Shown piece by piece: positions 2,919 to 59,100 of a DNA stretch of 64,000 bases. The DNA is from Rugalucina vietnamica (taxonomy: Eukaryota; Mollusca; Bivalvia; Lucinida; Lucinidae): contig OZ024869.1 of the NCBI GenBank assembly GCA_964017185.1, positions 68,294,315 to 68,358,314 of the forward strand, written 5' to 3'. Numbering within the stretch: the first letter of the stretch is position 1; every line of letters begins with the position of its first letter. The translations under genes were made by a program, and so were the position numbers. Under the pieces are notes generated by a model. The model worked only from the letters and a program-made list of their open reading frames with translations, searched no databases and was not told where the DNA came from.

Positions 2919-5900
2919 GTATATTCTGCAAATAACTAAGCTGCGCAGCTTTTACTAGTGGTGCATATGCTTTTCAGTTCATACATAGTTAACCCTTAAT
3001 CCGCAGCAAAATATTTTACCGATTCACGGATTGGGCACTGCTGACAAATTCAGAGCGCTTTTATGATTTTCTACTGTTTGCGTTTAAAACCATATAACTT
3101 TGTCACAAACAAGCTTCATCGAAAAACCAAATGGAAGATCAAAAGGCCATTGAATTATCTATCAAATAAACCAAAAATCATAAATGATGTTTGTGAATAA
3201 TACTTGAAGCAATGACAAAACGAGTCAAAAAACACACAAAATTTTCTATTTCAAATCTGTTACGAGAGTCAATTTTGTATGAAAAAATTGACAATGGGGG
3301 ATATTGTCAACTCAGTTTACCTTATTCACCCCCTAACACCCAAAATGCAAGAATTCCTCATCAGAGTCTTTTTTTGAAGTAATATTCAACTTTTTATCTC
3401 TCCGGTGTCGGTATAGTTCCTTTGTGTCGGCCATTGCAAAATCTTGAAAACAAGATTATATTGTTTTCATTTAGCATAATAAAAATTCCCATTAAATGTT
3501 CCATATAAACTAAACATATGCTCAGTACAGGGCCTTTTGGGAAAGTCTTTATGACATAATGTGTCCTCCCATTGAATTTCACTGTTGGACTCGATCGAAA
3601 AGGAAAGAATGTACAAAAACAACATATGAGCCGCCCCGTGGGAAAACCAACAATCTGCATATGCGAAAACAAAGGCGCAGATCAGCTTCGTGGTAACCCC
3701 GAAGCTGATCACGCCTTTGTTTTCGCTACTCGGATAGTGCAATTCCTCCTCTACTTAACTCCAAAATTTCAAGCTTCTAGCCTGCTTCTGTAGCTGTACA
3801 GGCCGGTTTGTGTCGGACCTGTTCGGAAACCACATTGTTGGTTTTCCCACGAGGCGGCTCATATGTTGTTTGCGGCATTGACAGACTTTACAGCTGGGGT
3901 TTAAGGGTTAAAACACTTTATATTTTAGTGAGTAGCTAGCAGGTTTGTGTCTGTGCTATAGCTATACGCATAATACCAAAAACAAGACTTTTTTTTTTTT
4001 CAGATCAAACTTTTAAATCAGACTGATATAACAATAAATATAACTCAACTTTTGATGTTTCTTTAAAGGTGTTTAGTGATGGTATTGATTAAAACAACAA
4101 ATGCTAAGATGTCTGCTGTGATTGGGGATTAAAAATTTTGTTTGTATGTTTGTATTTAGGTTTTGCATTCCAGTTAACATTTTTCAATCATGTTGGGACG
4201 GAGCCATGTTGAGCCACCTCTTCCTGGGTACATGTATTTACTAGTATTTGTATATGTGTCTTTCTCAAGGATGCATGATGATGGCTCGGGAGCCTCCTTA
4301 GTGGGGTTGTGCAAATTTTGCCATTCTGATGGCTCTTTGATGCAGCAACTTTTTCATATCCTTAAAGTCATGGAACTTTATTTTAGGTTCATCGTCTTGT
4401 CCTTGCAAGTTGTAGCGACTACTTCAAAGCCATGTTGTCGCATGATATGATGGAAACCAGACTTGATACAACTGACCTCAAAGGGGTCACGGTGAAAGGC
4501 CTTGACCCGCTTATCCATTATGCATATACGGGTGATCTCAAATTGACGCTAGAAAATGTACACGAAGTGATGTGTGCCGCTATGTTCCTACAGATAGAAA
4601 AAGCAACCAAGTTGTGTATAGCATTTCTAAAGGAAAAAATGACCTTTGAAAATGCTGAAGAATTGTTGAATATAGGAGAGATATTCTCTATTCCAGAGTT
4701 AAAGGAGTATTATAGGAATTATATTCTTAAGAACTTCCTTCAGTTCGTAGAGACGGATATGTTTCTAAATTTAGATGCGGAAACTTTAGCGGATTACCTG
4801 GAGGATGATGCCTTAGTGACTACCTCTGAATCTATTCTGTTCCATCACTGTTTACGTTGGTATAATCATGACAAGGAAAACAGAGAAAATGATGCCTTTA
4901 CTGTGTTTGAAAAGGTTCGAATGTGTGTTGATGGTTGGGGTGTACTTGGTTTCGCCCCAACTGTTGAACCCTTTATATCAAATGAGCAGTGCAAAGGCCT
5001 TCTTGAAGACTGTCGGCACTACATGCACGAAGCTACAAAACGTTACATAACAAACAATCACAGAACTCGTGTCCGTTCCACTCAACAGACAATTATCCAA
5101 ATGGGTGGCTTGATTCGAGGATTGGAATTTGACGATCCTTTCGAAGAAATGTTAAGCATTCCAGAGAATGAACTCCGTGGCTGGGACCGCAATCATTACT
5201 TCCACCCCAGTCTCAAACAGTGGTATCCCCTGGGGATTCTGGGTAATTGGATTACCCGGCTCTCTCACCAGAAAGCCGTTGAAGTGAACGACTGTGCTAT
5301 TCTGACGGGAGGGTACGACTACGTTCTTGACGATACGGTACAGAGGATCTGTGTTAAGGACGTGAAAATGTTCTCAGCTCAGGGCCACTTTCAGTTCTGG
5401 GACATGAACCCTATGCAACATGGCAGAGCTCACCATGCTGCCGTGTACCTAGAACGTAAGTGTATTCTATTCTTCTAGTGACCCACATACATGTAGTTTT
5501 GGTTGTATGTGTTACTTTCAAGATAACTTTTTCACATATCTCTAAAATAATAATACATGGACAATCAACTCAAACATAGGTTAAAGAAATATAGGATTTG
5601 TTTTCTGTTTCTACTTTTAAGAAAATAGCAATATTTCAGCTGAAAAAAGGTAGTCAAAAATGGCATTTGTTCGAAAATAAATGAAAGTGTAATGTTTAAA
5701 GAGTAAAGTCACTTACAGTGGGGGAACACTAAGTATGGGCAACATAACACCTAAGTTCTTTCTAATGTTGCAAACATTCTCTAGAAATTCATTGATGGAT
5801 TGTTAACTTCTTTGTGAAGTAGTGAAGAGATTACCCTATCAACTTGCCAACATAAAAATAATTTTCCTAACAATTTTCATGTGGTGATTGATTCATAAAG

Positions 5901-8900
5901 CAAGTTAGATTGGTACACAATTGAAATTAGCAGATTTGGCCATCTATTATTGGTTCTCTCCAGGGTTGTCAACAGTTGACCAGAGCAATTTGCAATTGAT
6001 TTGAATTGTGGAAAAGTAGGAAATTTAAGTTTGGCCACCCTAGCCAATTTAAAGATAAAGTAGTACGAAAAGAACCATTCAGTCACTTTTCCCATAGTTT
6101 GTCTTCTTTAGCTGTAATCATTCACCATTTCCAACCATTCCATATGACTGAATTTCAGGTTGCATCTATGTGATAGCTGGTAAGGATGATCGTCAGTCAT
6201 TGTCGTCCGTCGAGAAGCTCACCTGTGATACTGAAACCTGGAGTTACGTCAAGGCTTTACCGCAGAAAATATGGGATCATGCTGCGGTGACATGTGAAGG
6301 AAAGGTATATTAAATGCTTGGATTTTCCTCACAAATATATCAGAACTGCATTGTTCACAAGTTTGTTCCACTCTATTTGACATCAAACAAAACGGTCATG
6401 GCAAGTTGTTCCCATACAGGTATTTGCATCCCACAGTCTTATATTGGTTTCATCTGTATTTGAGCCGCCTCGTGGGAAAACCAACAATGTGGTTTCCGAA
6501 CAGGTTCGACACAAACCTGCCTGTACAAGCACAGAAAAGAGCTAGAAGCTTGAAATTTTATATTTAAGTAGAAGAGGAATTGTACTATCCGAGTAGCGAA
6601 AACAAAGGCGCTGATCAGCTTCGCGGTTACCGTGAAGCTGATCTGCCTCTTTGTTTTCGCATATGCAGATTGTTGGTTTTCCCATGAGGCGGCTCATTTA
6701 TTATGGCGTATTTATTTTGGTTGTCTCTGGATAATCATTGTGAAGATAGTGTAGCGGGATAGCCTCCCTTGAAAAAAATAGGTTGGTGCAACGTATTAGT
6801 GGCATATTTAGTGCTTGTAATATGCAGATTTCAAACTCGAAACTTTGTGAATCGAGTAAGTGTTGAGTATATAGCGCAGTAAACCACCCTTGGTGGATGA
6901 GCATGCTTTTCCACCGACGAGATTTGCTGTGGCTTGGTTCGGCTGCAAGTTACATTTGGAGGCAGTGGTGGGATGATGACAACTGCCAGAACGGAGTTGC
7001 CTTACCCATGTAGTCCCCAGGCCAAGACTCCGGACGATACTTCTCGGAGGGGGAAGTAAGTTCATGACTGGATAGCCTCCCTTGGAAAAATATGTCGGTG
7101 CAACGTATTAGCGGCATATTGAGTGCTTGTAATATGCAAATTTCAAACTCGAAACTTTGTGAATCGAGTAAGTGTTATATAGCGCAGTAAACCACCCTTG
7201 GTGGATGAACATGCTTTTCCACCGACGGTTTGCTGTGGCTTTACTCGGCTGTTTGTTACAACAGTAAAGATACTGATCAATATAAATACATGTAGGCAAA
7301 ATCTTTGAATTTGCTGGCTCATGATTGTTGTGTCCTCTGTTCACAGATCTATGTATGTGGTGGGGTAGACAGACTTGAAGTGAAGAAGAATGTCTGGTGT
7401 TATGATCCTGCTAGGAATAACTGGTCTAAGAGGGCGCCACTCAATAGTGGTAGGTGCAGGAATGGGGTACATTTGAGTACCCGGAAGAAATTTGCCAAAA
7501 TGATTGATGAAATAAAAATCTGTGGACTCTTTGAGCATACTGATAGTCACCAGTTCTGATATTAATGGGGTGGTACATGTAAATTATTTATAACCCTGTA
7601 TACCTGTGTCCTGTGATGCAACCAAGTTTGTTAAAGCTCAGATTGATGCAACATCACACATGACAAAATGGAGTGCATTAATTATAAGCCTGATCCATTG
7701 GGCAACAAGCTACAACAAAGCCATATTGATTTGGCAACAACCTATAGGGAGGCAATGAATTCTTCACTGTAGGTTGTTGCCCAGTCAATCATGTTTCCAA
7801 TCACAGCACTCCACTATGTCACATGATATTATTTTCATCAATCTGTAAGAAGTTTGGTTGCATCAGGGGTATATACAGTGTCAATCATCGTATTTTGTTT
7901 ACTGGCATGTCAAGTGTCAAATTTAAAAAAGAAATTGCTCTTTCCCAGAACATAGTCTCCTTAGGAAGGTTTTGTGTTGATTATTTTGCATATTTTACAG
8001 CTCGTGCAGGCCATGGTGTAGTGTGTATAGGCAAGTTTCTGTACACAGCTGGTGTCTACAACAGTATCTCAATCAGGAACAGGTGCCTTGTATCGTCGGA
8101 GAAATATTAATGATTGTTGTATATTTTACAGCTTGTGCAGGCCATGGCATGGTGTGTATAGGGAAGTTTCTGTACACGGCAGGTGGCTACAACAGTATCT
8201 CAATAAGGAATAGATGCCTTGTGTCGGTAGAGAAATATTGATAATTGTTGTATATTTTACAGCTTGTGCAGGCCATGGCATGGTGTGTATAGGGAAGTTT
8301 CTGTACACGGCAGGTGGCTACAACAGTATCTCAATAAGGAATAGATGCCTTGTGTCGGTAGAGAAATATTAATGATTGTTGTATATTTTACAGCTCGTGC
8401 AGGCCATGGGGTGGTGTGTATAGGGAAGTTTCTGTACACGGCCGGTGGCTACAACAGTATCTCAATAAGGAACAGATGCCTTGTGTCGGCAGAGAAATAT
8501 TCTGTAGAGACTGATCAGTGGACAAAAATCACTGGCCTGGACTCTGGCATAGCTCACTTTGGAATGTTAGGTAACTATTCAGAGGGATTTCTATGAGCCG
8601 TCGTGAGAAAACCTATAGTCATAAACAAAGACGCAGACCAGCTTCGCAGGAACTGCGAAGCTGATCAAAGCCTTTGTTTTCGCTACACGTATAGTACAAT
8701 TCCTCTTCTTTCTAAATCCAAAATTTCCAGTCTCTAGTCATCTTCTGTACTTGTACAGCTCTTTTTGTGCCAGACCTGGTCAGAAATCCTGAAGACTGGT
8801 TTTCTCGCATTGTGGCTCAAATTATAGGACCATTTCGGTATACCTTATAGGTATATTTTTGGCAGAAAACACTATTAAAGCATATAGAACATTAATCGGC

Positions 8901-11900
8901 AAATTTCAGTTTATATAATGCCACTTGTTATAATCGTTTTGATTCAGTGTGAAAATGTCCTTCATGGCATACAGCCCTTAATTCTTGCCAGATTTTCAGT
9001 CTGTGAAAAATGAATTGTGAAATTTTAGTAGGCTTGACAGTAAGTGTGGTTATGGTATTCAAAGGAAGAAAAAAATAACAATTTTCAATATTTTGTGTAT
9101 CAAATATCACTACATGTATTTTGAATTTTTTCCTTACATTGTTTTTCCAGCGCTCAACAAGAGAATTGTGATACTAGGTGGGGTAGACACTGCAGTCTCT
9201 GTCATTCACAATGCATGAATATGACCCTGAGCAAAAAAACATGACCTTATAGCCTCTATATCTCAACAAGGTTTTATTGAACCAGTTTTTGCGACACTGC
9301 AGTCTCTGTCATTCACAATGCATGAATATGACCCTGAGCAAAAAAACATGACCTTATAGCCTCTATATCTCAACAAGGTTTTATTGAACCAGTTTTTGCG
9401 ACACTGCAGTCTCTGTCATTCACAATGCATGAATATGACCCTGAGCAAAAAAACATGACCTTATAGCCTCTATATCTCAACAAGGTTTTCTTGAACCAGT
9501 TTTTGCGATCTCACCATGGCGAGAGTGCATATATTATTGAACAGGGCTGGAATCTTGTTGTTAATCGACCACACTTCCGGTCGTACTTGATTGGACAAGG
9601 CAGCTTCGATTGGGTCACCCTAAATATCGCATGCCGGCTTTGGTATGAAAGCTCACGTTGAACCGGCCTGTCAGAGTCTTTTCGGTCTGTGGTTATCCCC
9701 GTGGGTTTATACGTGGTCATACAGTGAAATTAGTGCTGAGAGATTGCAAGCGTTTTGGAAATGCTTATACTTGTGTTTATATATTTATACATATTTCATA
9801 AAATGTTTCAGTGCTCAACAAGAGAATTGTGATATTGGGTGGTGTAGACACTGCAGGCTCTCTGTCGTCTACAATGCATGAGTATGACCCTGAGAAAGAC
9901 AGGTGGAAGGTGTTTGGGGAGCTGCCTAGACCAATCAAAAGTAAGTACAATATGAGCCGCGTCAGGAGAAAAGCGGATATTTGCCATTATATAAACAAAA
10001 ACGCAGATGTGCAGTAACTGCTCAGCTGATCAGCGCCTTTGTTTTTGCTACTCGATAGTACCTCCACTTAAATCCAAAATTTCAAGCTTCTAGCCTTATT
10101 CTGTGACTGTACACGCCGTTTTTTGTCGGACCTGGTCGGAAACCCCGAAGATCGTTTTTCTCGTGTAGCAGGTCATGTATTTAATTCAAAGGTATTCTGA
10201 GCTTAGCAAGGACTCGAATGATTAATTTATAGTCTAAGCAACTGCCAAATATCTTCACTGCCTTGACATGGATTTGTCACATTTTCAGTTAGGTTAAATT
10301 AACCTAACTGAAAATGTGACAAATCCATGTCTTCTACCCTGTTGTATGGTTAGGTTTCTTCTACCCTGTTGTATGACCTGCAATGCATGGTGACTGAGTG
10401 TTCAAGAATGTGTTCAAACCGTTCTGTTGCATTGTAGTTTTTCCGCAACTCGCGAGTACAGGCATCTCCACTCTCTTTACGGATTAAGTACTGAGGAACA
10501 GTGATCTATGTGGACAGAATCATTATGTTGATTGAGAAGTTGTGCTGCAAACTTATTCAAGTATAATAAATGAAAGTGTGACTTATTCAAGTATAATTAA
10601 TATAAGTGTGTTGTAATATTGTTGTAAATCCTCTTTATGATATGAGCCCGTGCATGAGAAAACCAACAATTTGGGTTTTGAACAGGTCCGACACAAACCA
10701 AGCTGTACAGTCACAGAATAAAGCTTGAAGCTCGAAATTTCGGATTTAAGTAGAAGAGGGATTGTACTATCTGTGTAGCGAAAACAAAGGTGCTGATCAG
10801 CTTCTTGGTTACCGCGAAACTGATCTGGGCCATTGTTTTCACCTAAGCATTTGGTTGATTTTCTTATTCAGTGGCTCATATTCAAAGAGATATACTGATA
10901 TTTCAGACATGGCCTGCTGTGCAGTGACAGTAAAACTGACAGACACTGGCTGTATGGAAGACGAATCCGATGAAATCTCAGACCATTATAATCATATGTA
11001 AGTTGTCAAAGCCTGTGATATCTTGACATAAACTGTGACACAGATCATATTGACAAAGGTTTGTATGAAAGCAAATGATTGAACTCCACTAGTAGTGCAG
11101 TTCTAGCATCAAGATTGCTTGCAGAAACATTACTGTTCTCTTATTGCTTACATTATGAAAACATGCCTATGCATTGTACAGATTTTTATTGTAAAACTTA
11201 AAATTTTCAGTAGAAAATTCTTTAATTTCTTATTTTTAGCTCACCTGAGCCATTAGGCTCACAAGGTGAGCTTATAGGATGGCCATGATCCGGCGTCCGT
11301 CCGTCGTCGTCGTCGTCCACCATTTTCAAAGATCTTCTTCTCTGAAACGGCTTGGCCAATCAAAGCCAAATTTTATATGAAGCATCTATAGGAAGGGGGA
11401 ACCAATGTGTATATAAATGATCCAGGTCACATGACCAAGATGGCTGCCATGCCCATATATGGTAAAAACCCTTCAAAAATCTTCTCCAGAACCAGTGGAC
11501 CAATTTCAACGAAACTTGGCATGAAGCATGGATGGCTCAAGCACTACAATGTGTATATAAATCGTGACCCTGTGATGACCTTGACCTATTTTATGGCAAG
11601 GTCAACATAGGTCGCCAATGCATTTGAATGGGGAAAAATTTTAAAATGTCATTTCAAGTGAACATCTTGCAGGAAATGGGCAGTAGGACTGAATATTGAT
11701 GATTCTGAAAAACATTTGACCCCAGGGGCTCATGTGCCCCCACTCCGGGGCAATATACCTGTACATTACCATAATATTCAAACATCATCTCCTCTGAAAC
11801 CGCTTGGCCAATCAAAGCCAAATTTTATGTGAAGCATCAATAGGAAGGGGGAACCAATGTGTATATAAGAAATCCAGGTCACATGACCAAGATGGCCACC

Positions 11901-14900
11901 ATGCCCATATATGGTAAAAGCCCTTCAAAAATCTTCTTCTCCAGAACCGATGGACCGATTTCAACAAAACTTGACATGAAGCATCGATGGCTCAAGCACT
12001 ACAATGTGTATTATAAATCGTGACCCTGTGATGACCTTGACCTTCTTTACGGCAAGGTCAACATAGGTCACCAGTGCATTTGAATGGGGAAAAATTTTAA
12101 AATGTCATTTAAAGTGAAAATCTTGCAGAAAATGGGCAGTAGGACTGAATATTGATGATTCTGAAAAATTTTGACCCCAGGGACTCATCTGCCCCCACCC
12201 CGGGGCAATATACCTGTACATTACCATCATATTCAAACATCATCTCCTCTGAAACCGCTAGGCCAATCAAAGCCAAATTTTATGTGAAGCATCAATAGGA
12301 AGGGGGAACCAATGTAAATATAAGAAATCCAGGTCACGTGACCAAGATGGCCGCCATGCCCATATATGGTAAAAACCCTTCAAAAATCTTCTTCTCCAGA
12401 ACCGGTGGACCAATTTCAATGAAACTTGGCATGAAGCATTGATGGCTCAAGCACTACAATGTATATATAAATCATGACCCTGTGATGACCTTGACCTTTT
12501 TTACGGCAAGGTCAACATAGGACACCAATGCATTTGAATGGGAAAAACTTTTAAAATGTCATTTAAAGTGAAAGTCTTGTAGGAAATGGGCAGTAGGACT
12601 GAATATTGATGATTCTGAAACAAATTGGATGCCAGGGGCTTATTTGCCCCCACCCCCGGGCAATATACATGTATATTTCCATAATATTCAAATGTCTTCT
12701 CTGAAACTGCTTGGCCAACCAAAGCCAAATTTAATATGAAGCATCCTTAGGAAGGGGGAACCAATGTGTATATAAAAAATCGAGGTCACATGACCAAGAT
12801 GGCCACCATGCCCATATATGGTAAAAACCCTTCAAATATCTTCTTCTCTTAAACCGATAGATTGACTTCAATGAAACTTGGCGTGAAGCATCCATGGCTA
12901 TAGTACTACAAGGTATATATAAATCATGACCCTGTGATGACCTTGACCAAGTTTATGGCAAGGTCAACATGGGTTGCCCATGCATTTGAATGGGAAAAAC
13001 TGTTAAAATGTCATTTGAAGGGAAAAACCAGCAAGAAATTGGCAAATGGACAGACAGTGATGTAGATAATTATTTTTCACAATGCGTACTGTACGCATCA
13101 AAATAAATGCACACTGCGTACCGACAATACAACTGTGTACACGTTTTCTGAGGATTCTTATTCTAACCACTCCTTTAGAAGCAATTAAACTTATAGATAC
13201 ATGTATGTGTACACGTATGGATAAGACAATTTCTTCAAGTAATGAAAACTCAAGTAAATTGGCTACCAATCCTGTAATTACATGTTATTCTAATATTTAG
13301 GCGTGTTAAACCATACTTTTGTCCCCAGCATAGATAATAAGAGAAAAAAAAAATAGGAAAACATGATAAACTGGGCTGGCTGTAGAACATGGAATACATC
13401 AAGTTTAAATTAAAAACAATGACCGGAAATCGATGCAAAATGCCTATTCAATAAACAAAAGTGACACACTAAACTTCGTGAATAAATCTTTGGTAAACGG
13501 TTTGTCTGGCCAAGGAACTGAACGGAGAGCGCGTGAAGATACATTCTATATTGCATGATATGTAAATATGGAACGAGCAAAAGCTACATTAATAACTACT
13601 TTTCCATTGTTGACAGAGCAGCCAGACAAACCTAGTTGAAGAATTGTCATTTTGTGACAATTTTATAGATTTTTTTTTATCTGAGTATGCATAAAACTGA
13701 AAAATGTTTGCGCACCGCTGATTTTTACTGCGTACATGGTACGCACAGGTCCGAATTTTCTATGCGTACAGAGCGAAAAATCGTGCGTACATTCGCAGTA
13801 CGCATCGTTATCTATTTTGCTGGACAGAATATTGATTATTATGAAAAAAGAAAATGGCCCAAGGGCTTCATCTGCCCCTGCACTGGGGTTAAATACCATA
13901 ATATTCAAACATGTTTATTGGTATATGCAGCAGACTCAGGTGAGCGTTTACAGGACCATTGGTCCTCTGGTTTCTCAAAACATTTATTGTTGGTACACTT
14001 AAGAACGAGGCGGTTCTATAGAGTACCCACAATTAATGTTTTGGATCATAAATAAGGAAAATAGGTTTACCCCTGCAAACCCCATTTTCACTATATAAAA
14101 GTAGGGTTAAAGGTGTATTTATTGCACAGACATGTTATCCTGATTATTTAGGTTTGTGAATGTGCTACTGTGAGGCTAGCCTAGGTACAGTATGAACAGT
14201 CCATACATGGCCTCTCTGATACTCCTTTACCATGGAGTCTACAAATCAAAGTTCTACAATACCTGATAGGCAGATAGTTTTTAGTCAGCAGCCTGAAAGT
14301 AGAATTAACCACAACAAAATTAAATTAAGGATCCAGGTCTCGAGGTTATAAAACTTTTTTCATGCTCAGCTCAGTAGATCGTAAAATTCAAACTGCTTAT
14401 AAATGCTGATATAGCCAAAGTAAATTGAAATTACAGTTCTAGATCACCAAGGCCTGTAATTTATCCTGCTTATGAATGTTAAAATGCAACAGTTGTTGGC
14501 ATTTTAACATTTATGAGCAGGATAAATTTTGGCTCAGCTGAGCTGAGCATGAAAAAAGTTTTATAACCTCGAAGCCTGATCAGAGGAGCAGTCTCATCAT
14601 TGGCCATGTGTTTGATCTCAGTAAACAATCTGTTGGTTGTGTCAGGATGAGACACTACTTCCTGTGTACTAACTTGTACTATGGACAGAAATAATGTGTC
14701 TTCCTCAAGGGCACAACAAATGGGGAGCGCCATGGCCTAGTGGTGGAGTGTCAGACTTCAAATCAAGGTCCGGGGTTCCATCCCTGTTGCACAGTTTTAT
14801 GTCCATGAGCAAGACACATTAGTACTGGTAAATACCTAGGTAGCAGTGGCACCCCACGGACGTGACTGAAAAATTGTTGACTGGGACGTTAAATCACAAA

Positions 14901-21675: not shown

Positions 21676-24600
21676 CTGAAGAAAAATGAAAAATAAACAT
21701 GGTTTCAATTCAAGACGTTTATTGTTGTTCAAGCGAATTTCAGTAAAAAAATAATTTTTGTATTTTTCGATTTTTCGGGTTCCACTTCATTCCACTACCA
21801 TGTAGGCAATATTTATTCAATATGTAAAACATTTGTGCCAAAATTTCTGACATCGAGTGAAGCGAAATTAAGCGAGAGCATGTTAAAATTGTGGTCATCT
21901 TGTGGTCAGCTAAAATCTAATTATAGTCTATAGTCTGTTTCAGACAATCATTCATGGTAATGTTGGCTTGCATGTGCTTAATTGTGCTTCAATCTTGGCA
22001 GCTACTTTTTGCATAAAATGTTTACTTTTTGAATACATTTTGCCTACAATGTAGTGGAATGAAGTGGAACCCCAAAAATATCAAAACAAAACAGGCAATG
22101 AATATTCATCCCATATATGTTGAAAAAGACTATAGTTGGAAGTTCAAGGTCACCTATGATTTGTTTACATTTTTTCTTAAATTTTATTGCATATTTTAAT
22201 TATTTTTTATATACAAATGTTTGAAATCTATTTATTATAATGTTTAATTGGCAGTGCTAATGAAAATTTAAATATAACTAGAAATGCGTGTTTGTAAAAC
22301 ACTATGCCCCCAACTGTATGCTTGTCCCTAAACTGGCAGCTTGTATGATTCATTTATTTCATTTGAATGAAGTGAAATTTAATTTCCTAAAGAAGCTGTT
22401 CGGTTGCCTCTGTTTTTGACCTCGATCCAGAAACAGAATGTAAGCTTTTTGCATACAAGTTAGAAATGGAGTAAAAATTTCAAAATGGAGTTATTTTGTC
22501 AAAATTTGACGGAAAGTCCTCGAAAGTTAATCAGGTGATCTTCTCAGCCCCAACCAGTATACCAAATATGAAGGCTCTAGCTTAAATACTTTTTCAGATA
22601 TCTTGCACACAAGATTTTCAAATTTTGTTTTAAAAGGGGCATAACTCCAAAAAGGCGCATAACTTGAACATGAAAAAAATTACGGGTCAACTATTTTTAG
22701 CTCACCTGAGCCGTTAGGCTCACAAGGTGAGCTTATAGGATGGCCATGATCCGGCGTCCGTCCGTCGTCCGTCCACAATTTCAAAGATCTTCTTCTCTGA
22801 AACCGCTTGGCCAACCAAAGCCAAATTTTATATGAAGCATCTATAGGAAGGGGGAACCAATGTGTATATAAGAAATTCAGGTCACATGACCAAGATGGCC
22901 ACCATGCCCATATATGGTAAAAACCCTTCAAAAATCTTCTTCTCCAGAACCGGTGGACTGATTTCAACGAAACTTGGCATGAAGCATTGATGGCTCAAGC
23001 ACTACAATGTGTATATAAATCATGACCCTGTGATGACCTTGACCTATTTTACGACAAGGTCAACATAGGGCGCCAATGCATTTGAATGGGGAAAACTTTT
23101 AAAATGTCATTTAAAGTGAAAGTCTTGCAGGAAATGGGCAGTAGGACTGAATATTAATGATTCTGAAAAAAATTGGACCCCAGGGGCTCATATGCTCCCA
23201 CCCTGGGGCAATATACATGTATATTACCATAATATTCAAACATCATCTCCTCTGAAACCGGTTGGCCAATCAAAGCCAAATTTTATATGAAGTATCAATA
23301 GGAAGGGGTAATCAGTGTATATAAATAATCCAGGTCACATGACCAAGATGGCCGCAATGCCCATATATGGTAAAAACCCTTCAAAAATCTTCTTTTCCAG
23401 AACCGGTGGATCGATTTCAAAGAAACTTGGCATGAAGTATCGATGGCTCAAGTACTACAATGTGTATATAAATCATGACCCTGTGATGACCTTGACCTTT
23501 TTTTACGGCAAGGTCAACATAGGTCGCCAATGCATTTGAATAGGGAAAACTTTTAAAATGTCATTTAAAGTGAAAGTCTTGCAGGAAATGGGCAGTAGGA
23601 CTGAACATTAATGATTCTGAAAAAAAATGGACCCCAGGGGCTCATCTGCCCCCACCCCGGGGCAATATACATGTATATTACCATAATATTCAAACATCTT
23701 CTCCTCTGAAACCGCTTGGTGAATCAAAGCCAAATTTTATGTGAAGCATCTATGGAATGGGGGAAGTAATGTATATATAAATTATCTAGTTCACGTGACC
23801 AAGATGGCTGCCATGCCCATATAAGGTAAAAACCCTTAAAAAATCTTCTTCTCCGAATCTGGTGGACCGATTTCAAAGAAACTTGGCATGAAGCACCAAT
23901 GGCTGAAGTACTACAATGTGAATATAAATCATGACCCTGTGGTGACCTTGACCTATTTTAGGACAAGGTCAACATAGTTCGCCAATGCATTGGAATGGGG
24001 AAAACTTTAAACCAGAGGACCAATGGTCCTGTAAACGCTCACCTGAGATCAGCTGCATATACCAATAAACATGTTTGAATATTATGGTATTTAACTCCAG
24101 TGCAGGGGCAGATAAGCCCTTGGACCATTTTCTTTTTTCAGAATCTTCAATATTCTGTCCATTTGCCAATTTCCTGTTGGCTTTTTCCTTCAAATGACAT
24201 TTTAACAGTTTTCCCAATTCAGATGCACAGGCAACCCATGTTGACCTTGCCATAAACTTGGTCAAGGTCATCACAGGGTCATGATTTATATATACATTGG
24301 AGTACTTTAGCCATCGATGCCTCAAGCCAAGTTTCCTTGAAATCAGTCTATTGGTTTCAGAGAAGATGATTTTTGAAGGGTTTTTACCATATATGGGCAT
24401 GGCGGCCATCTTGGTCATGTGACCTAGATTATTTATATACACATTCAGATTCCCCCATTCTATAGATGCTTCACTTAAAATTTGGCTTTGTTTGGCCAAG
24501 CGGTTTCAGAGGAGAAGACGTTTGAATATTATGGAAATATACAAGTATATTGCCCCGGGGTGGGGGCACATGAGCCCCTGGGGTCCAATTTTTTTCAGAA

Positions 24601-26977
24601 TCATTAATATCCAGTCCTACTGCCCATTTCCTGCAAGACTTTCACTTTAAATGACATTTTAAAAGTTTTCCCCATTCAAATGCATTGGTGACCTATGTTG
24701 ACCTTCCCGTAAAATAGGTCAAGGTCATCACAGGGTCATGATTTATATACACATTGTAGTGCTTGAGCCATCGATGCTTCGTGCCAAGTTTCGTTGAAAT
24801 CAGTCAACCGGTTCTGGAGAAGAAGATTTTTGAACGGTTTTTACCATATATGGGCATGGCGGCCATCTTGGTCATGTGACCTGGATTTTTTATATACATA
24901 TTTGTTACCCCTTCCTATTGATGCTTCACATAAAATTTCGCTTTGATTGGCCAAGCGGTTTCAGAGGAGAAGATGTTTGAATATTATGGAGATATACATG
25001 TATATTGCCCCGGGGTGGGGGCAGATGAGCCCCTGGTGCCCAAATTTTTTCAGAATCATTAATATTCAGTCCTACTGCTCATTTTCTGCAACATTTTTCC
25101 TTTAAATGACAATTTAACAATTTTTCCCATTCAAATGCATTCGCGACCTATGTTGACCTTGCCGTAAAATAGGTCAAGGTCATCACAGGGTCATGATTTA
25201 TATACACATTGTAGTGCTTGAGCCGTCGATGCTTCGTGCCAAGTTTCGTTGAAATCGGTCAACCGGTTCTGGAGAAGAAGATTTTTGAACGGTTTTTACC
25301 ATATATGGGCATGGCGGCCATCTTGGTCATGTGACCTGGATTTTTTATATACATATTTGTTACCCCTTCCTATTGATGCTTCACATAAAATTTCGCTTTG
25401 ATTGGCCAAGCGGTTTCAGAGGAGAAGATGTTTGAATATTATGGAGATATACATGTATATTGCCCCGGGGTGGGGGCAGATGAGCCCCTGGTGCCCAATT
25501 TTTTTCAGAATCATCAATATTCAGTCCTACTGCTCATTTTCTGCAACATTTTTCCTTTAAATGACAATTTAACAATTTTTCCCATTCAAATGCGTTCGCG
25601 ACCTATGTTGACCTTGCCGTAAAATAGGTCAAGGTCATCATAGGGTCATGATTTATATACACATTGTAGTGCTTGAGCCATTAATGCTTCATGCCAAGTT
25701 TGGTTGAAATCGGTCCAGTGGTTCCGGAGAAGAAGATTTTTGAAGGGTTTTTACCATATATGGGCATGGCGGCCATCTTGGTCATGTGACCTGGATTATT
25801 TATATACACATTGGTTCCCCCTTCCCATAGATGCTTCATGTAAAATTTGGCTTTGATTGGCCAAGCGGTTTCAGAGGAGAAGATCTTTGAAAATGGTGGA
25901 CGACGGACGGACGACGGACGGACGACGGACGGACGGACGACGGAGCATGGGTATACTATAAGCTCACCTTGTGAGCCTGACGGCTCAGGTGAGCTAAAAA
26001 GTCATTTGAGGTGAAAATCTTGCAGGAAATGGGTAGTAGGACTAAATATTAATGAGTCTGAAAAAAAAAATGGACCTAAGGACTCATATGCCCACACTCC
26101 GGGGCAATATACATGTATATTACCATAATATTCAAACATCTTCTCCTCTAAAACCACTTGGCCAATTGAAGCCAAATTTTATGTGAGGCATCTATAGGAT
26201 GGGGGAACCAATGTGTATATTAATAATCTAGGTCACATGACCAAGATGGCCGCCATGCCCATATATGGTAAAAACCCTTCAAATATCTTCTCTGAAACCA
26301 ATAGATTGACTTCAATGAAACTTGTCGTGAGGCATCCATGGCTATAGTACTAAAATGTATATATAAATCATGATCCTGTGATGACCTTGACCAAGTTTAT
26401 GGCAAGGTCAACATGGGTTGCCCATGCATTTGAATGGGAAAAACTGTTAAAATGTCATATGAAGGGAAAAGCCAGCAAGAAATTGGCAAATGGACAGAAT
26501 ATTGATTATTCTGAAAAAAGAAAACGGCCCAAGGGCTTCATCTGCCCCTGCACTGGGGTTAAATACCATAATATTCAAACATGTTTATTGGTATATGCAG
26601 CAGACTCAGGTGAGCGTTTACAGGACCATTGGTCCTCTTGTTTCATGAAGAATTTGTATATGAAATTTCAAAACCCTAACATTCACTGTTCAAAAGTTTC
26701 AAATTTCACCGAAAAGTGGAAAAATCAATCAAAATTTCAAAATTCCGTATTTTGTCAAAATTTGACGGAAAGTTGTCAAAAGTTGATCAGGTTATCTACT
26801 CATCAGCCCCAACCAGTATACCAAATATGAAGGCTCTAGCTTAAATACTTTTTCAGATATCTTGCACACAATATTTTTAAATTTTGTTTTCAAAAGGACA
26901 TAACTCATAAAAGGGGCATAACTTGGACATGAAAAAAAATACGGGTCAACTTTTTTTTCATGAGAAATTTTTATATG

Positions 26978-47100: not shown

Positions 47101-50100
47101 CGTCGTCCGTCCGTCGTCCACCATTTTCAAAGATCTTCTCTGAAAGCGCTTGGCCAATCAAAGCCAAATTTTATATGAAGCATCTATGGGAAGGGGGAAC
47201 CAATGTGTTTATAAATAATCCAGGTCACATGACCAAGATGGCCGCCACGCCCATATATGGTAAAAACCCTTCAAAATTCTTCTTCTCCGGAACCACTGGA
47301 CCGATTTCAACGAAACTTGGCATGAAGCATCGGGGACTAGAGTACAACAATGTGTTTATAAATTATGACCTTTGGATGACCTTGACCTATTTTATGGCAA
47401 GGTCAACATAGGTCACCCATGCATTTGAATGGGGAAAATCGTTAAAATGTCATTTGAAAGGCAAAACTTGCAGGAAATGGGCAAATGGACTGAAGGTAGG
47501 TAATTCTGAAAAAAATTTGGACCCCAGGGGTTGGTCTGCCCCCACCCCGGGGCAATATACATGTATATTACAAAAATATTCAAAGATCTTCTTCTCTGAA
47601 ACCGCTTGGCCAATCAAAGCCAAATTTTATATGAAGCATCTATGGGAAGGGGGAACCAATGTATTTATAAATAATCCAGGTCACATGACCAAGATGGCTG
47701 CCATGCCTATATATGGTAAAAACCCTTCAAAATTCTTCTTCTCCTGAACCAATGGACCGATTTCAGCGAAACTTGGCATGATGCATTGGGGACTTGAGTA
47801 CTACAATGTATATATAAATTATGACCTTTGGATGACCTTGACCTATTTTACGGCAAGGTCAACATAGGTCGCCCATGCATTTGAATGGGGAAAATTGTTA
47901 AAATGTTATTTGAAAGGCAAAACTTGCAGGAAATGGGCAAATGGACTGAAGGTAGGTAATTCTGAAAAAAATTGGGACCCCAGGGATCGGTCTGCACCCA
48001 CCTCAGGGCAAAATACATGTATATTACAAAAATATTCAAAGATCTTCTTCTCTGATACCACTTGGCCAATCAAAGCCAAATTTTATAGGAAGCATTTATG
48101 GGAAGGGGGAACCAATGTGTTTATAAATAATCCAGGTCACATGATCAAGATGGCTGCCATGCCCATATATGGTAAAAACCCTTTTAAATTCTTCATTTCA
48201 ACGAAACTTGGCATGAAGCATCGGGGACTGAAGTACTATAATGTGTTTATAAATTATGACCTTTGGATGACCTTGACCTATTTTACGGCAAGGTCAACAT
48301 AGGTCACCAATGCATTGGAATTCGGAAAACTTATAAAATGTCATTTAAAGTGAAAGTGTTGCAGGAAATGGGCAGTAGGACTGAATATTAATGATTCTGA
48401 AAAAATTGGACCCCAGGGGCTCATTTGCCCCAACCCTGGGGCATTATACATGTATATCACCTTAATATGCAAACATCTTCTCCTCTGAAACTGCTTGGCC
48501 AATCAAAGCCAAATTACATGTGAAGCATCTATAGAATTGGGGAATCAATGTGTATATAAATAATCAAGGTCACATGACCAAGATGGCAGCCATGCCCATA
48601 TATGGTATAAACCCTTCAAAAATCTTCTCTGGAACCGGTGGACCAATTTTCGAAGAAACTTGGTGTGAAGCATCTATGGCTTAAGTACTACAATGTATAT
48701 ATAAATCATGAACCTGTGATGACCTGTATAAATCATGACCCTGTGATGACCTTGACCCAGTTTATGGCAAGGTCAATATGGGTTGACCATGCATTTAAAT
48801 GGGGAAAACTGTTAAAATGTCATTTGAAGGGAAAAGCCAGCAGGAAATTGGCAAATGGATAGAATATTGATTATTCTGGAAAAAAAAATTCCCCAGGGGC
48901 TTCATCTGCCCCTGCACTGGGGTTAAATACCATAATATTCAAACATGTTTATTGGTTTATGCAGCAGATCTCAGGTGAGCGTTCACAGGACCAATGGTCC
49001 TCTTGTTCACCAAAGTCTGAAAAAGTGATTTTTTTTTTTTTTTTTTTACACAACCTTAAAGTAAAAGAAAGTCACCCACACACACTGAAAGTCAAAATTT
49101 CTTGACTGACAACTTGCCACATTTTATAGTGATGTGGAAAGAAGAAAATTGTCAATTAGCATAAAAGATATTCTTAAGAAATCATTTCACTGTCTGTAAT
49201 AAGGAGCCTATTTAGCACCTTTGAGGGATGGGAGGGAAGTACATGCCATCATAAAATAAGCAAATGCAGTACACAGTAATGTTATCAGCTGTAAAATGAT
49301 TATTTTCTGCTAAAAAATATACTTTTGCTCAAAACATAGAGTTTGGATGCCTATTGTTTTTGACACAAAATTAAGAAAAAGGTATACCCTTGTACACCCC
49401 AGTTTTATTTACATGAAAGTGGGTTGTAAGGGGTATACATTTCACACACATGTTAATACTGATGCACATACCATTTAAAGGATAGGCATCTGAAATTTTT
49501 CATGCCATTCATGGTGAATGTTAGTATACGTATCATGATACAGAATCTGTTCACCATCTTTAATGATTGGTGAATGTCATTACGAAAACTTGCCCATGCA
49601 ATATACAAAGATTTTTTCATTGAAATTTTCATTAAAAAAAAATATTTTTAGCTCGCCTGCACGAAGTGCACAGAGCTATTGTTGTCATCTCGGTCGTCCG
49701 CGTTTACATGTACGTCCGCGTCACACTTTCGGTTAAAGTTTTTGGAAGTCTATATCTCTTGAACATGTAGATGTATCAAGTTGATACTTTGCATATTGGT
49801 AGATATTGGTCTGAAGTTTTATGCAGTACCATCATGACCCATCCTGGGTGACCTTGAGGTCAAGGTCACAGACTTAGAAATTTTATGTTAAAGTTTTTCA
49901 TTAAAGATTTAAGAAGTCTATATCTCTTGAACATGTTGATGGATCAAGTTGATACTTTGCATGTTTGAAGATATTGGTCTGAAGTTTTATGGAGTACCAT
50001 CATGACCCACCCTGGGTGACCATGAGGTCAAGGTCACAGATTTAGAAATTTTTTGTTGAAGTTTTTCGTTAAAGTTGTTAGAAGTCTATATCTCTTGAAC

Positions 50101-53100: not shown

Positions 53101-56100
53101 ATGCACGCCATGTTTGTTTATACGTGACTGTTTGCGCACAGCTCATTAATAGTCATAAGTAGGCAGTGGGCAAAAACTGCTGGAAATTTGAAAGCGTTTT
53201 TCTCGGTGACCGCAGTTGCCTCTAGTCGGCACAGATGGATATTCCACGGGCGATCGCAGTCACCTACAGCATGCTAAAAGTTACCGGTCCATAGTTTTGG
53301 ATATAACATGGAACTATACCATGGCCTGGTACCCAGCTTAAAAAAGATAATATATAATGGCCTGGTACCCAGTTCAAAAGATGTCAGAGCTATAGCAATG
53401 TTTCACTATGTCACAGGTTGGTCTTAACTGCGCATGCCTGGACCGGTCCATAGTTTTGGATATAACATGGGACTATACCATGGCCTGGTACCCAGCTCAC
53501 AAGATAATAAGGAATAAGCTGGTAGATGTAATAGAAAAACCAAATCAAATAATAGATAGGTGGTAATTGAAAACACAAATGCAGTCGACGAATGTGCCTC
53601 TAAAATACACTGAACAGTGTTTTTGATAGCAAATTGTCAACCTCCTCATTAATGACAGTGTGTCTTTCAAAGATGCTAAAGACCAATTTCATTTTGAACT
53701 GATATGGAGAGTCGGACGAATTGAATCTTCATGGTATCTTGTATATACATGTATGTTACCTGCACATAATCCTCGCGAGAGGGTGATGCAATAGTCCACC
53801 ATGGTCATCCTCGTCACCCCGGGGCAATAGTTTTGACTATTCACCAAACCACCATGAAATAACTGTTTATTATTACCCAACCCACTACATACAGAGTAAT
53901 TGCATATTTTTCGCTATATCATGAGTTGGTCTTAGACCGGTCCATAGTTTTGGATATAACATGGGACTATACCATGGCCTGGTACCCAGCTCAAAACAGT
54001 GCTATAAACAGTGTTTTGCTATGTCATGAGTTGACACCAACTACCCATGCTGGGATCGGTCCATAGCTTTGGATATAACATGGTACTATACCATGGCCTG
54101 GTACCCAGCTCAAAAAAGATAATATACAATGGCCTGGTACCCAGCTCAAAAGATGTCAGAGCTATAGCAATGTTTCACTGTGTCACAGGCTGTCCTCAAC
54201 TGCGCATGCCTGGACCGATCCATAGTTTTGGATGGGACTAAACCATGGCCTGGTACCCAGCTCACAAGATAATAAGGAATAAGCTGATAGATGTAATAGA
54301 TGAAACAAATCAGAGAATAGATAGGTGATAATTGAAAACATAAATGCAGTCGACGAATGAGGATCTACAATACACTGAACAGTGTTTTTGATAGCAAAGT
54401 GTCAACCTCATTAATGGCACTGTATCTTTTAAAGATGCTAGAAGTCCAATTTGATTTTGAACTGATATGGAGAGTCAGACGAGATTGAATCTTCATGGTA
54501 TCTAGTACATGTATATATGTTATTGTTAGGTAATAAAACAGTTATTTCATGGCTATTTGGTGAATAGTCAAACCATTGCCCCTCGGTGACTCGGATGACC
54601 CGATGGACTATTGCCCTCGGCCTTTGGCCTTGGGCCATAGTCCACCATGGTCATCCTCGTCACCTCGGGGCAATAGTTTTGACTGTTCACTAAACAGCCA
54701 TGAAAAAACTGTTTAATATCAACCTGAGAATATAAATATTGACCGAGGCGAAGCCGAGGTCAATATTGGTATTCTCGGGTCGATATCACATCATATCCAA
54801 TGCCTCAATAGTCATTAATTGTTTTATTATATTTGAAGTCTACAAATTTTCATATTAACTGGCTAGCGCGTGCTGGCAGGTCTATATTAGTTTCTAAATC
54901 AAGAGCTGATTGGAAACTTGCCATTTTTTTTTGTCATTTCCAATCAGCTCTAAATTTAGTAATTAATATAGACCTGCCAGCATGCGCTAGCCAGTTAATA
55001 TGACAATTTGAAGACTTGCCACGTGGGCGCTTTGGGCCAATGAAAAGCGAGATTTTCAGTAGCTTATATAATAATTATAGATGATTTATGATTAGAAATT
55101 TACATATACCTGTCTCATTAGTGTATAATATTGGTAAACAAACCATCCATGAGATGACTGTCTTTCTTGATTGTAAACTTTGACTGAAGAAAATATTTGA
55201 ATATCTTTATGCAATGCATTCTCACCTTCTGTTATTAGTGACTATCCAATTTGATGTTTTTAGCTCACCTGAGCCGAAGGCTCACACGTGAGCTTATAGT
55301 ATACCCATGCTCCGGCGTCCGTCGTCGTCCGTCGTTCACAATTTCAAAGATCTTCTCCTCTGTAACCACTTGGCCAATCAAAGCCAAGCTTCACATGGAG
55401 CATCCCTAGGAAGGGGGAACAAAAGTTTGTATAAATGGTCCAGGTCTCATGACCAAGATGGCCACCATGGCTATAAATAGCAAAAACCTTTAAAAATCTT
55501 CTCCTCCAGAACCAAAAGGCCTTTGAGTATGATTTTGAAACTTGGCATGAAGCATCAGGCAATAGAGCTCTACAAAGTATATATAAATCATGACCCTGGG
55601 ATGACCTTGACCTTTTATACGGCAAGGTCAACTTAAGCCGCCCATGCATTTGAATGGGAAAAGTAGGAAAATGTCAATTAATGGCAAAAAAACTTGGTAG
55701 GAATGAGCAAATGGACAGATGTTTTATGTTTATGAAAATTTTTTGGGCCTAGAGGGTTGTCTGCCCCTGTCCCGGGGCTATATACATGTGTATGACCATA
55801 ATATTCAAACATCTTCTTCTCTGAAACCGCTTGGCCAATCAAAGCCAAACTTTATGTGGAGCATTCTTAGGAAGAGTAAATGAAAGTTTGTAAATGGTCA
55901 GGGTCACATGACCAAGATGGCTGCCATGGCTATAAACAGCAAAAACCTTTAAAAATCTTCTTCTACAGAACCAGATGGCCTATGATTTTGAAACTTGGCA
56001 TGAAGCATCAGGCAATGGAGCTCTACAAAGTTTATATAAATCATGACCCTTGGATGACCTTGACCTTTTATACGGCAAGGTCAACTTAGGCTGCCCATGC

Positions 56101-59100
56101 ATTTGAATGGGAAAAAATTGGAAAATGTCATTTGGTGGCAAAAAACTTGCTAGGAATGAGCGAATGGACAGAATATTCATGTTGATGAAAATATTTTGGG
56201 CCCAGAGGGTTGTCTGCACCTGCCTTGGGGCTATATACATGTGTATGACCATAATATTCAAACATCTTCTTCTCTGAAACCACCAGGCCAATCAAAGCCA
56301 AACTTTATATGGAGCATTCTTAGGAAGAATGAATGAAAATTTGTATAAATGGTCAAGGTCACATAACCAGGATGGCCGCCATGGCTATAAATAGCAAAAA
56401 CCTTTAAAAATGTTCTTCTCTAGAATCAGAAGGCCTATGATTTTGAAACATGGCATGAAACATCAGGCAATAGAGCTCTACAAAGTTTGTATAAGTCATG
56501 ACCCTGAGATGACCTTGACCTTTTTAATGGCAAGGTCAACTTAGGTTGCCCATGCATTTGAATGGGGAAAATTGTTACAATGTCATTTGAAGGACAAAAC
56601 TTGCAGTAAATTGGCAAATGGACTGAACCTTTATGATTTAAAAAAAGAAATTGACTCCAGAGGTTGCTCTGACCCTGCCCTGGGGTTATATACATGTATA
56701 TTACCATTCTAGTCAAACAAGTTTATTGGTATATATCTCAGGTCTCAGGTGAGCGTTTACAGGACCATTGGTCCTCTGGTCTTCAGTACTCTAGCCATGT
56801 TTTGTTTTCTGATTTTTCATAGGTAAGGTGGATATAACTGAGTTGACCGAGATATATCGGAAGAAACAAGAGCCGTATTGTAAAAATAGTAAACCATTTG
56901 ATTGCCTTACTAAAGCTTGGAAGGTAATATCAAAGTTTTTATCAGAGCCATGAAGTCTATAGATTGCTGCCTAAATACTAGTGCTACATACACCTGGACC
57001 TCTTTATAACACGGTTCATTAAAACACGGTTTTGGATATAACACTGATCAGTGTTGGACCCCAATTAGACAATTTTTGCTATATGTCTATACATTTTACT
57101 CTCATTATAACATGGATTGGATAGTTAACACGGAAATCGGCTTGGACCCTAGCAGTAGTGTTATAAAGAGGTTGAAACCAAACCAAGTTTTAACCAACAT
57201 AGAAACGCCTGTGTTGCATATTGGTTAAGCAACATGCCATGTTAACCAAGTGTAGTGACTTCAAGCCCAAGCTTCTCCTGTTTTTAGGACTTAAGCCAAG
57301 TTTTTTTTTTTTGTTTTTTTTTTAGCTCACCTGAGCCGAAGGCTCACAGGTGAGCTTATAGGATAGGCAGGCACCCGGCGTCCGTCCGTCGTCCGTCTGT
57401 CGTCCACCATTTTCAAAGATCTTCTTCTCTGAAACCGCTTGGCCAATCAAAGCCAAATTTTATATGAAGCATCCATAGGAAGGGGGAACCAATGTATATA
57501 TAAGAAATCCAGGTCACATGACCAAGATGGCCGCCATGCCCATATATGGTAAAAACACTTAAAAAATCTTCTTCTCCAGAACTGGTGGACCGATTTCAAC
57601 AAAACTTGGCATGAAGCATCGATGGCTCAAGCACTACAATGTATATATAAATCATGACCCTTTGATGACCTTGACCTATTTTACGGCAAGGTCAACATAG
57701 GTCGTCAATGCATTGGAATGGGGAAAAATTTTAAAATGTCATTTTAAGTGAAAATCTTGTAGGAAATGGGCAGTAGGACTTAATATTGATGATTCTGAAA
57801 AAAATTGGACCCCAGGGGTTCATCAGCCCCCACCCCGAGGCAATATACCAGTACATTACCATAATATTCAAACATCATCTCCTCTGAAACCGCTTGTCCA
57901 ATCAAAGCCAAATTTTATGTGAAGCATCAATAGGAAGGGGGAACCAATGTGTATATAAGAAATCCAGGTCACATGACCAAGATGGCCGCCATGCCCATAT
58001 ATGGTAAAAGCCCTTCAAAAATCTTCTCCAGAACCGGCAGACCGATTTCAACAAAACTTGGCATGAAGCATATATGGCTCAAGCACTACAATGTGTATAT
58101 AAATCATGATCTTGTGTTGACCTTGACCTATTTTACAGCAAGGTCAACATAGGTGGCCAATGCATTGGAATGGGGAAAAATTTTAAAATGTCATTTTAAG
58201 TGAAAATCTTGCAGGAAATGGGCAGTAGGACTGAATATTGATGATTCTGAAAAAAAAAAAGGAACCCAGGGGCTCATATGCCCCCACCCCAGGGCAATAT
58301 ACATGTATATTTCCATAATATTCAAACGTCATATTTCCATAATATTCAAACGTCTTCTCCTCTGAAACCGCTTGGCCAATCAAAGCCAAATTATATGTGA
58401 AGCATCTATAGAATGGGGGAATCAATGTGTATATAAATAATCTAGGTCACATGACAAAGATGGCCACTTTGCCCATATATGGTAAAAACCCATCAAAAAT
58501 CTTCGCAGAAACCAATAGACTGATTTCAAGGAAACTTGGCCTGAAGCATCGATGGCTAAAGTACTCCAATGTATATATAAATCATGACCCTGTGATGACC
58601 AAGTTTATGGCAAGGTCAACATGGGTTGCCTATTTATTTGAATTGGGAAAACTGTTAAAATGTCATTTGAAGGGAAAAGCCAGCAGGAAATTGGCAAATG
58701 GACAGAATATTGAAGATTCTAAAAAAAGAAAATGGCCCAAGGGCTTCATCTGCCTCTGCTCTGGAGTTAAATACCATAATATTCAAACATGTTTATTTGT
58801 ATATGCAGCAGATCTCAGGTGAGCGTTTACAGGACCATTGGTCCTCTGGTTTTAAAAAGAAAGAAAACACCACCATCACCTTTGGAAGTGTCCAAAACCT
58901 CAGGTTTCCCCAAATAAACTAAATTGAAAAATTAATATGGAAGATTAAAAATGTGTTAAACAAAATTGAAATTTTAATATGGAATATTATAATATGTCTT
59001 TTGTTTCAGGAAGTTCTTTGTATTGATCGAACTGACTCCATATTGGATGGAAGCTTATTTCTGGAAGCTGGAGGGGATTCATTCAAAGCCATAAAGCTTC

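Follow-up and report, generated by a model that had tools for sequence, protein, structure and literature searches.

A kelch-like gene of Rugalucina vietnamica carries an array of 131-bp units across the boundary of its fourth intron and fifth exon, and only the last unit of this array continues to the donor of the exon. The three units upstream of it are decoys, each with an acceptor, a stretch of open exon sequence, and an in-frame stop. At a probability of roughly 60%, the array is a tolerated duplication whose units exchange sequence with one another, a passenger of the gene and not an evolved switch. The window, defined here as the whole 64,000-nucleotide stretch of DNA that was analysed, was placed on contig C1 of a genome of 1.09 Gb in 47 contigs.

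The Kelch Gene and Its Surroundings

The protein assembled from the exons is 595 amino acids in length and matches the Pfam families BTB (4.3e-26), BACK (8.9e-19), and Kelch_1 (8.4e-43), with four Kelch_1 stretches. By these matches the gene is a BTB-BACK-kelch (kelch-like) gene, in agreement with an earlier note on this DNA, which had spoken of a kelch exon and a kelch-like protein. The exons lie on the forward strand and were placed using frame and splice signals. The first three are at positions 2800-2918, 4387-5455, and 6159-6304, with a provisional 5' end. Upstream, the splice partner of the array is exon 4 (7347-7449), with a phase-1 end followed by GTAGGT. The working exon 6 is at 9812-9940 and a further exon is at 10907-10997; the last exon of the gene is provisional.

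Several repeats surround these exons. A palindrome-like element (GCGAAAACAAAGGCGCTGATCAGC... and its complement) is present in several introns (6593-6660, 8620-8683, 10776-10845, and others), and intron 4 of the related locus described below holds a further copy of the GCGAAAACAAAGGCGCTGATCAGC element. A short way upstream of the kelch gene, positions 1002-1199 and 1314-1511 hold two copies of a fragment resembling a BED zinc finger (Pfam zf-BED, 7.4e-5), with 99% identity and a spacing of 312; this repeat is possibly a piece of a transposon. Five tandem arrays with units of 452-456 bp are found in the window (11325-13044, 22773-24008, 24133-25891, 47134-48725, and 55343-56719), and several of their consensus units resemble each other. 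Tandem Repeats Finder (TRF) arrays with a period of 60 or more (13 rows) make up 18% of the window, which counts in favour of the duplication reading preferred below.

Structure of the Array

TRF places the array at 7986-8501 with a period of 131, 3.9 copies, 93% matches, and a score of 864, far above chance expectation. Each unit joins the end of intron 4 to the start of exon 5. On the forward strand, unit 1 (8001-8131) is composed of an acceptor, 107 nucleotides of exon 5, and a 24-nucleotide intron tail, with a TAA stop at 8108-8110. Unit 2 (8132-8262) has a TGA stop at 8239-8241, and unit 3 (8263-8393) a TAA stop at 8370-8372. Unit 4 is the working exon 5 (8394-8570, 177 nucleotides), which ends at the donor TTAG/GTAACT at 8570/8571.

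Exon starts preceded by AG are thus present at 8001, 8132, 8263, and 8394, where the earlier note had put them. Its reading of TAA, TGA, and TAA stops after EKY in units 1-3, and of unit 4 as the only one to reach the GTAACT donor, also stands. When the frame is carried from exon 4 (phase 1), units 1-3 read ...EKY and then a stop, with a second in-frame stop directly behind it, and unit 4 stays open to 8570/8571. The further description of the array as an exact fourfold repeat is right as to four units of 131 bp, but the copies are not exact, with 0-15 differences per 107 nucleotides. In this shared exon part, unit 1 differs from units 2, 3, and 4 at 15, 15, and 11 bases, respectively, and units 2 and 3 each differ from unit 4 at 6 bases. 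The units are 86-100% alike, and the only identical pair is units 2 and 3, with no differences.

The exon part of a decoy ends in ...GAGAAATATT (...TATAAATATT in unit 1 of the related locus) and abuts an intron tail with TTTTACAG at its end. Across this joint the triplet is TAA in units 1 and 3 and TGA in unit 2. Every decoy in the window ends the protein at residue 498, with the first Met in the assembled frame as residue 1. Exon 5 would be 570, 439, 308, or 177 nucleotides in length with the acceptor of unit 1, 2, 3, or 4, respectively. RNA folding of 7981-8590 gave a z value of −2.94, which was given no weight in the interpretation.

The in-frame stop triplet of each decoy coincides with the core of a yTRAy motif, matched by TTAAT at 8107-8111, TTGAT at 8238-8242, and TTAAT at 8369-8373. 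At all five junctions between a decoy and the unit after it, counting both loci, the A of this branch-point-like motif lies 22 nucleotides upstream of the exon start that follows. The tail of unit 2 has two bases unlike those of units 1 and 3, yet the pair of stops and the motif are kept. For several other acceptors of the kelch gene, the same scan found no yTRAy match within 50 nucleotides. If the motif reading is right, the stop triplet would double as a putative branch-point core. Because the motif core TAA or TGA is a stop in one of the three frames, a duplication that carries a branch point would tend to carry a stop as well.

A directly repeated exon segment was found in none of 38 other gene-centred loci with kelch or BTB matches, which total 133 kb (L018-L057, leaving out L028 and L029). 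This control is weak: most of the loci consist of one large open frame with flanks of 1.5 kb, and several overlap. Arrays with a period of 60 or more account for 3.6% of these loci. Even so weak a control suggests that the event is not commonplace, which counts against the preferred reading. No earlier report of such an array was found in the literature searched, which does not in itself prove that there is none.

A Second Locus with the Same Junction

A related array is present in the same assembly on C15, a different chromosome-size contig. It has three units with the same exon-to-intron junction and the same 131-bp period, and its flanking insertions differ from those of the window. Among the matches listed, the C15 gene is the one close relative in the genome, with a protein 99% identical over the BTB-BACK exon, and no single-unit ancestor is found elsewhere in the genome among those matches. 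Beyond the two loci, the genome search listed ten kelch matches with 27-39% identity, and only the best candidates were scored.

Unit 4 of the window and the last unit of C15 differ by one base, and this difference is synonymous. Across 593 aligned codons of the two genes, 47 differences are synonymous and 5 are non-synonymous (dS 0.1395, dN 0.0036). The low dN relative to dS indicates that both genes are under strong constraint and are kept by selection, and that the full-length protein is evidently made. Since the same junction is found at both loci, the first duplication is older than the copying of the gene to another chromosome. The array lengths, four and three units, have diverged since that copying.

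A possible last exon was seen at the C15 locus (L006 near 3884, minus strand), where LQLDWVELKV...KIV is followed by a stop. No counterpart of this exon was found in the window, and the proteins of the two loci may have different ends.

Both loci also have a decoy upstream of exon 6. In the window this partial copy of exon 6 is at 9151-9250 on the forward strand (the end is approximate), and has a high-scoring acceptor, a frameshift, and a TGA stop at 9216-9218. Its acceptor scores 10.4 versus 2.3 for the working acceptor at 9812; the corresponding values at C15 are 9.5 and 0.5. A 2-nucleotide frameshifting deletion is common to the exon-6 decoys of both loci. The window copy is itself partly multiplied, with three copies of 107 bp at 9186-9508 and 99% matches.

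Differences Between Units and Probable Exchange Between Loci

The decoys were compared to the working exon using window units 1 and 2 (the exon part of unit 3 is identical to that of unit 2 and was counted once) and C15 units 1 and 2. Synonymous changes make up 20 of the 29 differences. A neutral simulation based on the transition/transversion ratio seen in intron 3 together with the initial stretch of intron 5 has a mean of 6.9 synonymous changes, and 20 was not reached in any of its 5,000 runs. Purely neutral decay of the decoys was rejected on this pooled count. Third codon positions take 22 of the 29 differences (p 4e-6). Because some changes are shared by units, each derived state was also counted once, with 15 of 24 synonymous (p 6e-5); the count is 12 of 21 (p 0.001) when sites 18 and 48, possible changes of the working lineage, are left out. 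Taken singly, window unit 1 (P 0.0008), C15 unit 1 (P 0.026), and C15 unit 2 (P 0.007) have the excess, and window unit 2 alone does not reach significance (3/6, P 0.18). The open frame was discarded as a sign of selection, since 41% of neutral simulations likewise lack a stop.

Direct coding use of the decoys would yield the same synonymous excess. The simplest cause of the pattern is exchange of units, and the divergence between the two loci bears on the choice. Over the last unit and 578 aligned nucleotides of intron 5 (8394-9150), 12 of 755 sites differ. The part of intron 4 that precedes the array has 59 differences in 542 sites (10.9%), intron 3 has 54 in 1029 (5.3%), and the decoy of exon 6 has 11 in 89. 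This shift in divergence at the array makes a replacement tract between the loci likely, one whose boundary would lie within or close to the repeats. The units and their flanks have probably been exchanged between loci. The result of 12 in 755 supports exchange and weakens the case for coding selection on the decoys themselves. As the working exons are near-identical and perhaps homogenised, part of the synonymous excess could consist of changes in an older working exon.

Further observations touch on exchange. The identity of units 2 and 3 in their exon parts and the unequal lengths of the arrays are in line with it. The dS of 0.14 well exceeds the divergence of intron 3 and of the start of intron 5 (1.9%) but is close to the intron 4 value, a contrast that exchange may partly explain. 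Two of ten pairs of informative sites (five sites) fit no common tree, with 27 changes needed versus a minimum of 25, and these conflicting pairs could equally reflect recurrent mutation.

The preferred reading of a tolerated, exchanging duplication would run as follows. A tandem duplication copied 131 bp, the last 24 nucleotides of intron 4, with a branch-point-like motif, a pyrimidine tract, and AG, together with the first 107 nucleotides of exon 5. As the copies lack the last 70 nucleotides of the exon and its donor, a transcript that is spliced to an upstream unit and not cut again reads directly into the next intron tail, where the stop lies within the branch-point-like motif. Some transcripts would leak to the decoys in this way and be lost to nonsense-mediated decay. 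Slippage or unequal exchange, within and between loci, would keep replacing the units and the working position. Such ongoing replacement would account for the change in copy number, the mixed variants, the close match of the two working exons, and differences that fall as they do in protein-coding sequence.

Acceptor Choice

The last 19 intron nucleotides are identical in the acceptors of units 2-4. Unit 1 has the highest-scoring acceptor of the array (8.1 versus 5.5 for unit 4), a point against the preferred reading, although the matrix is generic and the acceptors assumed to work in this gene, seven in all, themselves score from 0.4 to 9.1. With units 2-4 alike and unit 1 higher, acceptor sequence alone fails to explain use of the last unit.

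The flanking introns are long at both loci. In the window, intron 4 is 551 nucleotides (to the first acceptor) and intron 5 is 1241 nucleotides; at C15 the lengths are 788 and 763 nucleotides, respectively. One study reports that upstream 3' splice sites are preferred overall and that, for near-equal sites, long introns on both sides lower this preference significantly; it concludes that the sites closest across the exon are favoured in that setting (PMC9225289). The last acceptor would be favoured here because both flanking introns are long: the exon would be recognised as one unit, and its donor would pair with the closest acceptor, giving an exon of 177 nucleotides and not one of 308, 439, or 570. 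We infer that exon definition favours the last acceptor, with some leakage to the decoys. The last unit need not be the preferred one, given the overall upstream preference in that study (PMC9225289).

The earlier note had offered a choice between a neutral accident, tolerated through strong preference for the last acceptor, and a ready-made poison switch. The neutral accident is the better supported of the two, with two amendments: the acceptor sequences do not favour the last unit, and the differences among units have a synonymous bias, which the mere decay of neutral copies would not produce.

Alternative Readings

The poison switch would consist of a regulated choice between the last unit and the decoys, with decay tuning the level of the kelch protein. 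A premature stop more than about 50 nucleotides before an exon junction is expected to trigger nonsense-mediated decay. The stops at 8108, 8239, and 8370 lie 462, 331, and 200 nucleotides before the exon end at 8570, and are in the position expected for decay under this rule. All five decoys at the two loci keep the AG, the open frame, and the double stop, and both genes that bear them are constrained. Against the switch, the stop is a by-product of duplicating a branch-point-like region, the open frame alone is no evidence of selection (as the neutral simulations above indicate), and the number of units is unequal between the loci. A ready-made poison switch is possible as a putative function of the array, but it is an unlikely account of it.

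The synonymous pattern (20 of 29 differences, with 22 of 29 at third positions) would also fit a translated short form, that is, a stable BTB-BACK protein ending in ...EKY with a cut propeller, in which selection keeps the codons of the decoys. The window decoys all end the protein at one residue (498), as such a product would have it. The propeller, however, would be cut inside a blade, decay of the transcript is expected, the number of units varies, and exchange of units accounts for the same pattern. The short form is considered improbable, somewhat more so than the switch.

About as improbable is the gain of an intron, in which units 2 and 3, and unit 2 of C15, would be spliced as 51-nucleotide in-frame mini-exons and the stop thereby removed. 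By motif score and frame, possible mini-exons of phase 1-1 are at 8132-8182 (unit 2) and 8263-8313 (unit 3) on the forward strand. The route would use an inner donor, CAG/GTGGCT, and the acceptor of the next unit, and would add 17 residues per unit. All four routes tested are open to the end of the assembled frame. A tandem duplication across an intron-exon boundary, the geometry from which such introns can arise, is present here. In potato, a gene duplicated in this manner acquired an intron of this kind, as RNA-seq supports (PMC4974935).

At 8182 and 8313 the inner donor keeps the phase of the next acceptor, and its score is close to that of a true donor (6.9 versus 6.4 for the true donor of exon 5), but GT sites that are presumably unused score as high. 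Two that are out of phase, at 8151 and 8282, reach 7.1, and another, at 8413 within the working exon, reaches 6.8, so the generic donor matrix does not discriminate. The working last unit has CCG/GT at the inner-donor site at both loci, in favour of this reading, yet C15 unit 1 also has CCG/GT. Unit 1 of the window has the best acceptor and a weak in-phase donor (3.8), and would therefore need to be skipped. Within the 17 mini-exon codons, 12 of 14 differences are synonymous versus 8 of 15 elsewhere, which is not significant (Fisher p 0.11), and the rest of the unit likewise has a synonymous excess (P 0.01). The 17 extra residues would sit within a propeller blade. In its fullest form, this reading would make the array an intron-gain factory in progress, with mini-exons separated by 80-nucleotide introns, selection retaining the inner donor as CAGGT in the middle units and having eliminated it, as CCGGT, from the last at both loci, and the stop serving as the branch-point core; that elaboration is slightly more doubtful still.

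The worry of the earlier note that the whole array is an assembly artefact is largely answered, and this is very improbable, as the units are not identical and the same junction recurs with another unit number on another chromosome-size contig with other flanking insertions.

Comparison with Known Systems

Mutually exclusive exons are whole copies with their own donors, and they give alternative proteins. The array copies lack the exon end and its donor. Units 1-3 stop 107 nucleotides into the exon without the donor at 8571, and their inner GT sites, some of which score like true donors, give no full exon copy; mutually exclusive tandem exons were rejected for this array. The likeness to tandem exon duplication and mutually exclusive exons (PMC9013439, PMC9741552) is in the tandem copies of a coding exon within a gene, each with an acceptor.

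The potato gene resembles the array in that an intron end and exon start were copied with branch site, pyrimidine tract, and AG, and in that the copies differ by point changes (PMC4974935). It has one extra copy, a GTAAG donor, and a new intron proven by RNA-seq. The array has two to three extra copies and in-frame stops, and splicing between its units is putative.

The polyubiquitin gene UBC has tandem dual-specific splice sites, and is like the array in having repeat units with AGGT inside, where splicing could act. The UBC sites mark the limits of the individual ubiquitin monomers, and splicing changes how many of these there are (PMC10809524). In the array, the units end in stops and CAGGT is present at the site only in units 2 and 3 and in C15 unit 2.

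Poison exons and alternative acceptors coupled to nonsense-mediated decay are like the array in that use of a decoy would give a premature stop well before a later junction. The array is unlike them in its origin by a very local duplication, and the use and regulation of its decoys are putative.

Significance

If the motif reading is right, duplications that bear a branch point would tend to bring their own stop, which is offered as a general idea. The two constrained genes have four and three near-equal acceptors, one donor, and a clear cost of the wrong choice. They provide a natural gene case for an old question, namely which of several equal 3' splice sites, the first in line or the last, is taken when introns are long, and here the choice of acceptor would be readable from ordinary RNA-seq.
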